Source: Micromonospora sp. NBC_00421 (GTDB lineage Bacteria > Actinomycetota > Actinomycetes > Mycobacteriales > Micromonosporaceae). Taken from it: a stretch of 64,000 nucleotides of DNA. This document shows, piece after piece, positions 60,813 through 64,000 of the stretch. Position 1 is the stretch's first letter; each line of letters starts with the position of its first letter. The notes under the pieces were generated by a model. That model did not search any database. It worked only from the letters and a program-made list of their open reading frames with translations, and was not told the origin of the DNA. The stretch covers positions 5,996,001-6,060,000 of the forward strand of contig NZ_CP107929.1 in assembly GCF_036017915.1 (NCBI RefSeq). Direction: 5' to 3'. Both the position numbers and the translations under genes were made by a program.

Positions 60813-62564
60813 TCACATCCGTTCGACCGTGCGGATGCCGAGCAGGTGCAGCCCCTGCCGCAGGGTCCGCCCGGTCAGCTCGGTCAGCAGCAGTCGGCTC
60901 GCCCGCAGTTCCCCGTCCGCCCGCAGCACCGGGCACCGTTCGTAGAACGCGCTGAACCGGGTGGCCAGCCGGTGCAGGTAGCCGGCGAGGTGGTGGAACT
61001 CCGCCGTCCGGGCCACCTCGTCGACGACGGCGGCGAACCCGAGCAGCTCGAACGCCAGCGCCCGTTCGGCCGGCTCTCCGAGCACGATCCGGGCGTCCGC
61101 GCCGACCTGCGTGCCGGCCCGCCGCGACACCGCCCTGGTCCGGGCGTACGCGTACTGGAGGTAGGGGGCGGTGTTGCCGTCCAGGGCGAGCATCCGCTCC
61201 CAGTCCAGCACGTAGTCGCGGGTCCGGTCGGTGGACAGGTCGGCGTACTTGATCGCCCCGATGCCGACGACCCGGCCGATCTCGGCCGCGCTCGCCTCGT
61301 CCAGCTCGGGGTTCTTGGTCCGGGCCAGTGCGGTCGCCCGGGTCACCGCCTCCGTCAGCAGGTCGACCAGCTTCACCGACTCCCCGGCCCGGCTGCGCAG
61401 CATCCGCCCGTCCGGGCCGAGGACCGAGCCGAAGCCGAGGTGCTCGGCGCGGGCCTGCGGCCCCAACCAACCGGCCTGCCCGGCCACCGCGAACACCATC
61501 GCGAAGTGCTGCCGCTGCGGCAGGCCGACCACGTAGAGCAGCCGGGTCGCGCCCAGCTCGCCGGTGCGCAGCCGCAGCGCGGCCAGGTCCGTCGCGGGGT
61601 AGCCGTAGCCGCCGTCGCCCTTGCGCACGATCAACGGCAGCGGGGCGCCGTCCCGTCCGGTGAACCCGGGAGGGAAGGCACAGGTCGCCCCGGCGCTGTC
61701 GGTCAGCAACCCGAGCCGGTCGAGGTCGGCCACCACCGTGCCGAGCCGGTCGTCGTAGGCGCTCTCGCCCCGGAAGTCGTCCTCGGTCAGGGTCACGTCG
61801 AGCAGCCGGTACACGGTCAGGAAGTACCGCTGGGACTGCGCGACCAGCAGCCGCCACAGCCGCCGGGCCTCCTGGTCACCGCCCTGCAACGCGACCACCT
61901 GCTGCCGGGCCCGCGCCCGGAACTCCGGGTCGGCGTCGAACTTCGAGCGGGCCGCCCGGTAGAACCCGTCCAGGTCGCCGATGGACAGCTCCTGCGCCGC
62001 CCCGGCCTCACCGAGGTCCACCAGGTGCGCGATCAGCATCCCGAAGGGGGTGCCCCAGTCGCCCAGGTGGTTGACCCGGACGACCCGGTGCCCGAGCCAG
62101 CCCAGCAGCCGTACCGCCGCGTCGCCGATGACAGTCGAGCGCAGGTGCCCGACGTGCATCTCCTTCGCCACGTTGGGCCCCGAGTAGTCGACCACCACGG
62201 TCTCCGGATCGGCGGCCACCGGCACCCCGAGCCGGTCGTCGCCGGCCAGGGCGGCGACCATCGCGGCCAACGCGTCGTCGGCGATCGTCAGGTTGACGAA
62301 GCCGGGCCCGGAAACCTCCACCGCCGCACAGACGTCGTCGAGGACCGCGCGGTCCAGCACCGCCCCGGCGATCTCGCGCGGCGGCCGGCCGAGCCGCCGC
62401 GCCAGCGCCAGCGCCGCGTCGGACTGGAAGTCCGCGCGCGACGAGCGCCGTACCACCGGGGCGACCGGTTCGCCGGCCACGGCGGTGAACGCCGGCGTCA
62501 GCCGGTCGGTGAGCAGCCTTTCAAGATCCATGGGTACGCCGATCTGCTCGGATCCGTCGGTCAC
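60813..62564 (-). CDS. argS: Arginyl-tRNA synthetase
   Basis: 583 aa from a GTG with GGAG upstream (the ATG 11 codons in is an alternative). Class I signature NVAKEMHVGHLRSTVIGD with HVGH at 137-140. The Arg-specific N-terminal domain (about 20-105), LGDWGTPFGMLIAHL, the KMSK-equivalent loop GRMLRSRAGESVKL, and the C-terminal DALR anticodon-binding region ending in LHLLGIRTVERM are all present. It charges tRNA-Arg. It is preceded by the Arg-rich leader and attenuator at 62616-62744, so synthesis is probably tied to arginyl-tRNA supply. Confidence 0.97.
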   Translation of the reverse strand: MTDGSEQIGVPMDLERLLTDRLTPAFTAVAGEPVAPVVRRSSRADFQSDAALALARRLGRPPREIAGAVLDRAVLDDVCAAVEVSGPGFVNLTIADDALAAMVAALAGDDRLGVPVAADPETVVVDYSGPNVAKEMHVGHLRSTVIGDAAVRLLGWLGHRVVRVNHLGDWGTPFGMLIAHLVDLGEAGAAQELSIGDLDGFYRAARSKFDADPEFRARARQQVVALQGGDQEARRLWRLLVAQSQRYFLTVYRLLDVTLTEDDFRGESAYDDRLGTVVADLDRLGLLTDSAGATCAFPPGFTGRDGAPLPLIVRKGDGGYGYPATDLAALRLRTGELGATRLLYVVGLPQRQHFAMVFAVAGQAGWLGPQARAEHLGFGSVLGPDGRMLRSRAGESVKLVDLLTEAVTRATALARTKNPELDEASAAEIGRVVGIGAIKYADLSTDRTRDYVLDWERMLALDGNTAPYLQYAYARTRAVSRRAGTQVGADARIVLGEPAERALAFELLGFAAVVDEVARTAEFHHLAGYLHRLATRFSAFYERCPVLRADGELRASRLLLTELTGRTLRQGLHLLGIRTVERM

Positions 62565-62615
62565 GCGGATCTCCGGAGGGGGAGAGTCTGCGGACGGACC
62601 GAGGGCAGCGGAGGT

Positions 62616-62687
62616 GACCGGCGGCTCGATCCGCCGGTCGCAGGGGAATGGTCAGCGCGGGCGGGCGACGGATCGCCGGCGTCGCCC
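62616..62687 (-). promoter_or_regulatory. Putative ribosome-mediated attenuator of argS
   Basis: Minus-strand RNA order. Arm 1 GGGCGACG (62687-62680) and arm 2 CGTCGCCC (62670-62663) enclose the Arg codons of the leader peptide. Arm 3 GACCGGCGG (62639-62631) and arm 4 CCGCCGGTC (62624-62616) form a terminator-like hairpin 12 nt after the leader stop. CGATCCG (62675-62669) next to arm 2 can pair with CGGATCG (62633-62627) in hairpin 3:4, giving an antiterminator if a ribosome stalls. No U tract follows, as usual at this GC content. Confidence 0.6.
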
Positions 62688-62744
62688 GGCACCGACCTGG
62701 ACGTCGTACGACGTTCCGGTGTGCCGAGCTGTCACGCTGGTCAT
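62652..62744 (-). CDS. Arg-rich leader peptide of argS
   Basis: 30 aa, ATG to TGA. It begins MTSVTARHTG and ends GAGRRRRSVARPR; seven of 30 residues are Arg, six of them in the last ten. The stretch CGA-CGC-CGG-CGA is four consecutive Arg codons. The -10-like TACGCT (62757-62752) is 7 nt before the ATG, so the transcript may be leaderless. It is too short for standard gene callers. Together with the hairpins it looks like an attenuation control peptide. Confidence 0.6.
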   Translation of the reverse strand: MTSVTARHTGTSYDVQVGAGRRRRSVARPR

Positions 62745-62751
62745 GTCCGCC

Positions 62752-62757
62752 AGCGTA
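62752..62757 (-). promoter_or_regulatory. Candidate -10 of the argS leader transcript
   Basis: TACGCT on the minus strand, with TGTACC about 18 bp upstream as a weak -35. The implied start of transcription coincides with the leader ATG. It lies after the trpS stop, so argS has its own promoter. Confidence 0.4.
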
Positions 62758-62818
62758 GCGGGCCGGCCGGCGGCGGGTACACCGCGATCGCCGACCGGCC
62801 CGGTGGCCGTACGTCGGC

Positions 62819-63862
62819 TCAGGACGATCCGGTCGCGACGGCCCGGCGGCGGACCTGCTGGTAGGCGGCGGTCAACCCCATTGCCCGGCGGACCTCCACC
62901 AGGGTGGCCCGGACCCGCTCCCGGGTCCGTTCGGTGCCCTCGACGATCAGCTGGTCGACCAGCCCGGGTTGCGCCTCGATCCGGGCGCGGCGCTCCCGGA
63001 TCGGGTCGAGGAACCGGTTGAGCGCGCCCGCCAGGGCCTCCTTGACCTCCACGTCACCGATCCGGCCGGCCCGGTACCGCGCGGCGAACTCCGCGACCTG
63101 CTCCCGGTCCGGATTGAACACCGCGTGGTACGCGAAGACCGGGTTCCCCTCCACCGTCCCCGGTACGTCGGCCCGGACCCGGTTCGGGTCGGTGTACATC
63201 CCCATGACCTTGCGGCGGACCGTGGCCGGGTCGTCGGAGAGCGCGATGGCGTTGCCCCGGGACTTGCTCATCTTGGCCTGTCCGTCGGTGCCGACCAGGG
63301 TCGGCGTGGCCGACATGATCAGCTCCGGCACCGGGAAGACGTCGCCGTAGAGGTGGTTGAACCGCCTGGCGATCTCCCGGGTCACCTCGACGTGCGCGGC
63401 GTTGTCCCTGCCGACCGGTACCACGTGCGCCCGGACACACAGGATGTCGGCGGCCTGGAGGACGGGATAACCGAGCAGCCCGTACGGGATCTCGTCGCGT
63501 CCCGCGTCCCGGGCCATCTCCCGCACCGACGGCACCCGTTCCAGCCGGGGCACGGTCACCAGGTTCTGCAACAGCGTGTTGAGGTCGCCGACCTCGGGAA
63601 TGGCCGACTGCAGATAGAACGCCGCCCTCGCGGGGTCGACACCGCAGGAGAGGATGTCGGTGACCATCTCCCGGGCGTTGCCGGACACCGCGGCGATGTC
63701 GTCCCGGCTGTTACGGGTGGTCAACATGTGCAGGTCGGCGATGATGAAGAAACTCTCGTGCCGATGGTGCAGCGCCACCCGGTTGGCGATGCTGCCGACG
63801 TAGTGGCCGAGGTGCAGTCGCCCGGTCGGGCGGTCGCCGGTGAGCATCCGTGAGACGGACAT
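62819..63862 (-). CDS. trpS: Tryptophanyl-tRNA synthetase
   Basis: 347 aa; GAAAGG lies about 11 nt before the ATG. TGDRPTGRLHLGHYVGS contains HLGH (17-20), then LLGYPVLQAADIL, PVGRDNAAHVEVTREIA, and KMSKSRGN with KMSKS at 197-201. The GDRPTGRLHLGHYVGSI type resembles the auxiliary TrpRS form of actinomycetes, which in Streptomyces can confer resistance to indolmycin; whether this is the main or second copy cannot be told here. It is followed by argS on the same strand. Confidence 0.95.
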   Translation of the reverse strand: MSVSRMLTGDRPTGRLHLGHYVGSIANRVALHHRHESFFIIADLHMLTTRNSRDDIAAVSGNAREMVTDILSCGVDPARAAFYLQSAIPEVGDLNTLLQNLVTVPRLERVPSVREMARDAGRDEIPYGLLGYPVLQAADILCVRAHVVPVGRDNAAHVEVTREIARRFNHLYGDVFPVPELIMSATPTLVGTDGQAKMSKSRGNAIALSDDPATVRRKVMGMYTDPNRVRADVPGTVEGNPVFAYHAVFNPDREQVAEFAARYRAGRIGDVEVKEALAGALNRFLDPIRERRARIEAQPGLVDQLIVEGTERTRERVRATLVEVRRAMGLTAAYQQVRRRAVATGSS

Positions 63863-64000
63863 GCTGGTACGCCTTTCGTGCCGGAGGAACGGTGCGGGAC
63901 GCGCGGACGCGCGACCGACCCGGGGCGGTCGTCGCCCATCGAGGTCGGGAGGAGCGGCTCGTCAGAGCACGGGCCGCCATCGCCCGCCGGCGCGGAACCG

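Follow-up and report, generated by a model that had tools for sequence, protein, structure and literature searches.

The 5′ region of the spare argS in the window (the whole 64,000-nucleotide stretch of DNA analysed here) is probably a cis-acting, arginine-specific leader-peptide attenuator, mediated by the ribosome and acting mainly on transcription termination. Its interpretation as a leader-peptide sensor of arginyl-tRNA is well supported, and the most likely effect of the leader switch is that more ArgRS is made when charged tRNA-Arg is low. The sequence-only reading had described a 30-codon frame with the residues RRRR between trpS and argS, together with a stem and a 9-bp hairpin, and had compared the arrangement to trp-type attenuation. 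All of these features were present in the sequence, and the comparison gained support from the conserved frame, its Arg codons and the competing helices, the output step being what we infer. Beyond this, we recognized a probable leaderless mRNA, the status of argS as a second copy, a third partner for region 3 of the structure, and a putative exchange of the leader for the tail of gltX2. The features of the locus are as follows.

62819..63862, minus strand: trpS, second copy (TIGR00233), the upstream neighbour of the element
62752..62757, minus strand: -10 box TACGCT of the putative promoter, 7 nt before the leader start codon
62652..62744, minus strand: leader ORF of 30 codons, MTSVTARHTGTSYDVQVGAGRRRRSVARPR and stop, from translation, with counterparts in relatives
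62673..62684, minus strand: region 1, the four Arg codons CGA CGC CGG CGA, from the sequence and relatives
62663..62687, minus strand: helix 1:2, a protector-type stem of GGGCGACG (62680..62687) and CGTCGCCC (62663..62670)
62660..62668, minus strand: region 2, TCGCCCGCC, which can pair with region 3 (antiterminator 2:3)
62616..62639, minus strand: hairpin 3:4, GACCGGCGG-ATCGAG-CCGCCGGTC, 9 bp, terminator-like
62593..62603, minus strand: region 5, CTCGGTCCGTC, partner of region 3 and the loop (62625..62635), a pairing that excludes 3:4 and 2:3
62547..62558, minus strand: region 6, GACGGATCCGAG, which can pair with region 5 instead; 15 nt separate its end from the argS ATG
60813..62531, minus strand: argS, second copy (TIGR00456), with an ATG conserved in relatives

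Along the minus strand the order is -10 box (62757-62752), leader (62744-62652), hairpin (62639-62616) and argS ATG (62531), and 12 nt separate the leader stop codon from the hairpin at 62616..62639. A GTG at 62564 was rejected as the general argS start: aligned relatives keep the ATG at 62531, and in one relative (L071) the GTG frame was, by inspection, out of phase with argS.

In the mechanism that we propose, transcription would start at or beside the leader ATG, and the leader would be read from a leaderless mRNA. With charged tRNA-Arg plentiful, the ribosome would reach the stop codon and cover region 2, upon which region 3 would pair with region 4, forming the terminator-like hairpin, or with region 5, and argS expression would be low. 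With tRNA-Arg uncharged, the ribosome would stall on the Arg run and region 2 would be free; helix 2:3 would then form before region 4 is made, the repressive hairpin would be delayed or prevented, and argS would be made. We infer the ribosome stalling, this direction of control and an output mainly by transcription termination; the dependence of helix 2:3 on the stall is a modelled one.

A conserved Arg leader before a spare argS

The genome (G000, one contig, 7.23 Mb) encodes a second argS at C1:7008509 that is 31% identical to the element-linked argS, and a second trpS with 33% identity to the trpS of the window. Translations of both argS and both trpS exceeded the curated cut-offs of TIGR00456 and TIGR00233, the other argS and the other trpS having been translated only over their matched part. 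Before the housekeeping argS, which itself appears leaderless, no Arg leader was seen by inspection, and the element therefore belongs to the spare synthetase.

We searched for the argS protein in 160 genomes of the window's genus and took 110 upstream segments from among the matches listed, some of which were left out. An exact 11-base core of Arg codons, CGACGCCGGCG, stood within a frame in 81 of these segments. The other 29 comprised five slightly altered leaders, 14 cases of another leader followed by the same hairpin, four argS (64-66% identity) with no leader seen in the segment, and six more distant argS. Among the 14, the hairpin was located behind gltX-derived sequence in eight, and the leader was of a Salinispora type in six (VSSIELRRTVLDRLS and stop, or near variants). 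Type-A loci number 86 in all, the 81 that carry the core and the five slightly altered; alignment A1 holds 85 rows. A trpS was found upstream of argS in 44 of the 110 segments, most of which reached 1.5 or 2.3 kb upstream.

Of the 86 type-A loci, 85 had the leader ORF, and the longest Arg run was 4 or 5 in 81 of these. All 28 Actinoplanes-type loci had a leader ORF too, 27 of them with an Arg run of 4. Mean Arg fractions of 0.24 (type A) and 0.38 (Actinoplanes-type) compare with 0.074 in 20 window ORFs. The run opens with CGA, a rare codon that accounted for 32 of 654 Arg codons (4.9%) in 20 window ORFs.

A covariance model of the element core (R1), built from 37 rows, matched 171 of 354 genomes of the family, spread over 7 of 44 genera, at E 0.01 or better. 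The element preceded argS in 36 of 40 chosen matches, two of the 36 being before argS fragments. In the genus of Actinoplanes relatives (g4) we inspected 28 among about 50 matches listed. Each of the 28 was followed, after 33-96 nt, by an argS match (59-67% identity), and their leaders were such as MHSTFSERRRRLHGRR and stop. Among 296 genomes drawn from the class, two members of the window's genus matched strongly, at least one further member of the genus gave no match among the remaining 294 genomes, and three of the 294 scored 36-38 bits (E 0.003-0.006), about what chance gives.

The frame goes beyond chance, given the core kept in 81 of 110 segments and the model matches in 171 of the 354 genomes of the family. 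Two genera keep the short frame with its Arg codons, whose loss in relatives would have counted against the sequence-only reading. With both strands counted, the window has a single ORF of 8-50 codons that starts 6-7 nt after a TAnnnT box, namely the argS leader. Ten first-order Markov resamplings (64 kb, one strand each) yielded 24 such box-spaced ORFs, none with RRRR. A chance ORF in GC-rich DNA is ruled out by this conservation and resampling.

The position of the box is itself conserved. Of 92 parsed genus rows, 91 had a TAnnnT 6-7 nt upstream of the leader start, the remaining row being parsed at 4 nt, and all 28 inspected Actinoplanes-type loci had their -10 box at 6-7 nt. In a wider set of loci with the hairpin, the spacing was found in 122 of 132; the ten loci without a spaced box were L109, where the box was off consensus by inspection, and nine with a gltX2 tail before the hairpin. 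According to PMC8079986, a -10 spacing of 6-7 nt is typical of leaderless transcripts in Streptomyces, and several synthetase leaders are leaderless. Because of this spacing, the leader is probably translated from a leaderless mRNA with transcription starting at or beside its ATG. The putative promoter lies upstream of the leader, and not downstream of 62650, where a start would have spoken against attenuation.

Other Arg-rich frames precede argS elsewhere. In 15 of 16 loci, a more distant argS of the same genus (53-55% identity; loci L191-L195 and L267-L276) was preceded by a different, unrelated leader rich in Arg, suggesting more than one evolutionary origin for Arg sensing upstream of argS. 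This leader reads RRSRLRRR, or a variant, before its stop and ends CGACGACGATAG (CGA CGA CGA TAG); it is preceded by AGGCGGTG-type sequence that could serve as a Shine-Dalgarno, and in most loci its Arg codons form a stem with bases after the stop (by eye). In Catellatospora (L012, L017), other Arg-rich short frames of different sequence were seen by eye before argS, for example MTPQWLRDRRPGRSLPASGSRVVRRRVPAAR and stop. The spare argS was a fragment or split in eight genomes (G069, G134, G017, G121, G066, G118, G145 and G002), and some of the broken genes retain the leader or its hairpin, as if the gene were readily lost.

The neighbouring trpS has a conserved leader of its own, an ORF of 47, 48 or 55 codons that starts 6-7 nt after a -10 box. 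Among 30 relatives whose sequence reached far enough, 29 had this leader and one was masked there; the box was TACCGT in 27 of 29. Its tail is conserved around DGREQILDVLRAGGLRFRAGGRWR, with exactly one Trp codon near the end (loci L116-L168), and can be compared with trpL2 of S. lividans, which ends LWRAA before the stop (PMC8079986). Only its last 12 codons, RFRAGGRWRPVL and stop, are visible in the window (63962..64000, minus strand). About 5 kb past the window end, beyond a masked stretch and upstream of trpS-argS, sequence resembling 23S and 5S rRNA was noted by eye (L085, 10005..11340).

Competing helices and the position of the ribosome

Region 3 (GACCGGCGGAUCGAG) can pair with region 2 in the tail of the leader ORF, with region 4, the 3′ arm of the hairpin, or with region 5 further downstream. 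The sequence-only reading had proposed mutually exclusive folds. The pairings of region 3 with regions 2, 4 and 5, which share this one arm, were retained in 96.2, 94.9 and 95.1% of cells. The values for 3:4 and 3:5 come from a cross-genus alignment (A3) of 64 chosen rows, 63 of them distinct, which holds 18 of the 86 type-A loci; that for 2:3 is over the 63 distinct rows. Slid versions of the two A3 helices were paired in at most 60.0% (3:4) and 52.2% (3:5) of cells. Within A1, 3:4 was paired in 99.9% of cells, and helix 1:2, which reads GGCGGTC/GACCGCC in most rows, was paired in that register in 89.1% of cells over 85 rows.

Covariation of the stems, which the sequence-only reading had named as a check, stood for 3:4 in one measure and failed in another. 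By cells changed on both sides, 3:4 had 21 and 3:5 had 55 in A3, numbers reached in 0 of 500 shuffles each. By pairs changed on both sides, the counts of three (3:4) and two (3:5) were reached in 170 and 354 of 500 shuffles, and by further pair types in 125 and 500 of 500; the covariation therefore comes from few positions in many related rows. Helix 2:3 showed no change on both sides in the 63 distinct rows. Within the genus, 1:2, 2:3, 3:4 and 3:5 covaried little because their arms hardly vary there.

In the window, 2:3 had an energy of -11.9 kcal/mol compared with -18.6 kcal/mol for 3:4; in the window's clade region 2 is altered and 2:3 is weaker, with about five strong pairs. On average, 12% of shuffled leader tails in type A and 27% in Actinoplanes-type loci equalled the 2:3 energy. 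As a swap control, region 3 was paired with its own downstream region, at -20.7 kcal/mol in the 86 type-A loci and -21.3 kcal/mol in the 28 Actinoplanes-type loci, and with that of the other group, at -15.1 and -15.9 kcal/mol, respectively. Swaps among the Salinispora, gltX2 and g24 groups, which have like sequences, did not discriminate; for example, the Salinispora region 3 gave -18.3 with its own and -20.7 with gltX2-type sequence.

We then folded the RNA with the footprint of a ribosome barred from pairing, taking Arg1 as the first Arg codon of the longest run. In nascent RNA ending at region 3, a ribosome at Arg1 gave a probability of 2:3 above 0.5 in all 122 loci. The ribosome-free RNA passed this value in 27 of 122, and RNA with a ribosome on the stop codon in none of 122, a zero imposed by the mask. 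In the window's clade, 2:3 was already likely in ribosome-free nascent RNA (0.67 in the window). Equilibrium folding of the full RNA gave a mean probability of 2:3 of 0.48 at Arg1 compared with 0.01 without a ribosome in 83 type-A loci; at Arg1 it was 0.36 in the window and on average 0.07 in Actinoplanes-type loci. In the latter, the expected switch was absent from whole-RNA equilibrium folds and present in nascent folds. A stall at the last Arg of the run produced no switch (0.06 in type A, 0.00 in Actinoplanes-type). As modelled, the element would work as a switch under kinetic control, with the ribosome at the first Arg codons, and would perform less well at equilibrium. Once region 5 had emerged and the argS start had not, 3:5 reached a mean of 0.91 with the ribosome at the stop codon compared with 0.52 at Arg1 (type A). 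Because it is commonest with the ribosome at the stop codon, 3:5 is in these models more likely another OFF helix than an ON helix.

No U-tract follows hairpin 3:4 (sequence inspected), and a consensus terminator scan found no hairpin with a T-run in 62300-63200. The lack of a U-tract makes intrinsic termination less secure and control of translation possible. In such a scheme, which we regard as unlikely, the same Arg leader would govern translation: 5:6 would sequester the argS start region, competition among 3:4, 3:5 and 2:3 would set whether region 5 is available, and 3:4 would be a switch element and not a terminator. It would fit with 3:5 having the most cells changed on both sides (55) and with helix 5:6, which was predicted in the window fold and in A1 was paired in 93.2% (inner) and 94.0% (outer) of cells, with six inner cells changed on both sides. 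In type A this helix comes to within 15 nt (inner) or, in the consensus, 6 nt (outer) of the argS ATG. The predicted fold of one Actinoplanes-type locus (L252) likewise joins region 5 to the Shine-Dalgarno region GGGGTTGATC. The modelled states argue against this scheme, in that the mean openness of the start region was alike at all ribosome positions, at 0.38-0.39 in 83 type-A and 0.30-0.31 in 28 Actinoplanes-type loci. Moreover, a ribosome on the leader directly touches only regions 1 and 2, and 2:3 leaves region 5 free to repress. Hairpin 5:6 was formed in every modelled state, with no response to ribosome position, and the attenuation model, which we prefer, leaves this persistent pairing unexplained. 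A small start-proximal hairpin carried a UA-to-CG change in 19 of 85 rows.

Leader length varies by whole codons, from 15 to 35 over type-A and Actinoplanes-type loci, while the start keeps its frame and its distance from the -10 box. This is hard to reconcile with a conserved argS 5′ region that serves mRNA stability or as a fixed terminator, in which the Arg-rich ORF would be a by-product of GC-rich paired RNA and no sensor, and we hold that account to be very improbable. The recurrence of Arg-codon runs before argS in two genera, the unrelated Arg leader of a different argS subfamily and the resamplings without any RRRR frame also oppose it. In its favour, CGN Arg codons are GC-rich, conservation of the Arg-codon core extends to third positions, and elsewhere in the peptide purifying selection at the protein level is lacking, with a pN/pS of the N-terminal part of 2.0 (55 sequences) and 1.15 (20 sequences). 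Such values are expected if being translated is all that matters for the attenuator. Being above 1 in the set frame, they leave a functional leader peptide unsupported.

A T-box or other known regulatory RNA before argS is next to impossible. PMC1262725 mentions T-boxes at arginine genes of other bacteria; here no Rfam family matched at its gathering score, the best permissive match to the region (E 0.38) being to an unrelated family.

A possible exchange of the leader with gltX2

A gltX, encoding glutamyl-tRNA synthetase, stands immediately before the element in several genomes, and 13 of 16 such or related genomes checked have two gltX. The element-linked copy, gltX2, ends in GRERTLARLRAALDRLS before its stop, or in a close variant, and the promoter stretch TTCGGTAGCCTGCTA.CC before its GTG start was shared by 9 of 10 copies compared. 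A tentative extension of our model, which we would not yet favour, is a leader-exchanging Arg attenuator: the leader would be a dedicated, leaderless RRRR mini-ORF in most of the genus and in Actinoplanes relatives, and in sister lineages the Arg-rich tail of a complete gltX2, or a remnant of it, before the same hairpins. The hairpin arm with its three partners would then give a switch of three states that controls termination as well as the argS start.

The leader of G072 aligned with the gltX2 of G083 in two blocks, one covering promoter and start (81% over 64 nt, E 1.6e-12) and the other at the 3′ end (88% over 225 nt, E 1.4e-76); between them about 1.25 kb of gltX2 is missing. A gltX2 3′ end was matched by all four Salinispora-type leaders tested (87-91% over 83-91 nt). 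A match to a gltX2 start region was present in three of these leaders, at 78-82% over 38-41 nt with E from 4e-5 to 0.006. Promoter scores of the Salinispora type were 30-43, compared with shuffled 95% levels of 22-23 and maxima of 26-38. The Salinispora and G072 leader ORFs are 15 and 48 codons long and would have kept the gltX2 start region, tail and stop. From these sequences, our reading is that an internal deletion may have shrunk gltX2 in the Salinispora-type and G072 lineages. In an argS tree of 42 rows, drawn with a midpoint root, the Salinispora sequences grouped within the gltX2 clade (support 100/99, with 93/83 at the inner fork), which was sister to type A and G332 (81/48). Because the gltX2 clade stands beside type A and G332, the RRRR leader may be the older state.

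A descent of the window leader from gltX2 is unsupported, its promoter score of 16 being below the shuffled 95% level of 22; its match to the gltX2 3′ end (78.6% over 70 nt) falls within the shared stretch from region 2 to the hairpin. Among six type-A rows, the promoter score was clearly high in L151 (39, shuffled maximum 26), just above the 95% level in L128 and L117, and below it in L001, L106 and L124. At three further loci, L227 (G117), L231 (G025) and L234 (G022), the same hairpin stood behind gltX2, and the 3 kb of sequence retrieved contained no argS match; there the hairpin may simply terminate gltX2.

If leader exchange is real, a whole protein gene also serves as leader for the gene behind it, and gene reduction can give rise to leader peptides; the gltX2 lineages would then form a step-by-step record of a leader peptide made from a protein gene.

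Comparison with known attenuators

If our interpretation is right, the element is an arginine-specific attenuator in Actinobacteria and a natural sensor for uncharged tRNA-Arg. The spare argS, and perhaps the adjoining spare trpS as well, would be wired to synthetase failure, and this would hint at natural inhibitors of ArgRS or arginine analogues. No argS leader peptide appeared, by title or abstract, among the papers listed in literature searches that covered few subscription papers, so that an earlier report is possible.

The trpS1 gene of S. coelicolor, studied by Vecchione and Sello, reportedly encodes a spare, indolmycin-resistant TrpRS under ribosome-mediated attenuation. It would share with our argS the design of a spare synthetase gene behind a leader peptide; trpS1 is said to sense Trp and to resist indolmycin, whereas the argS leader would sense Arg. 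Mycobacteria have leaderless polycysteine short ORFs in which a codon run serves as amino-acid sensor. These resemble the argS leader as leaderless short ORFs with a codon run and differ from it in amino acid and target genes.

Predicted attenuators of Actinobacteria were described by Seliverstov et al. 2005 for the trp operon, trpS, leuS, ilvB and cys genes (PMC1262725). They are alike to the argS element in combining leader codons with competing helices; the trp and leuS terminators given there carry poly-U, unlike the argS hairpin. The same survey reports having seen no conserved RNA structure ahead of arginine operons, and argS is unnamed in PMC2965389 as far as the text available to us extends. 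Attenuators in other Actinobacteria are referred by PMC8079986 to Wolf et al. 2017.

Further close parallels are those of S. lividans, for which PMC8079986 describes the leader-peptide attenuators leuL2-leuS, trpL2-trpS, alaL-alaS and thrL-thrS. The RNA-seq re-annotation there gives eight leader peptides, none arginine-specific, argS is not among the genes, and the word arginine occurs 0 times in the main text (PMC8079986). That set derives from RNA-seq (PMC8079986), whereas the argS leader is known from sequence. In S. lividans, leuL2, trpL2 and thrL are described as leaderless, and trpL2 and thrL are without a U-tract (PMC8079986). The S. lividans attenuators and the argS leader have the same plan, a short ORF with cognate codons before a synthetase gene and hairpins after it.
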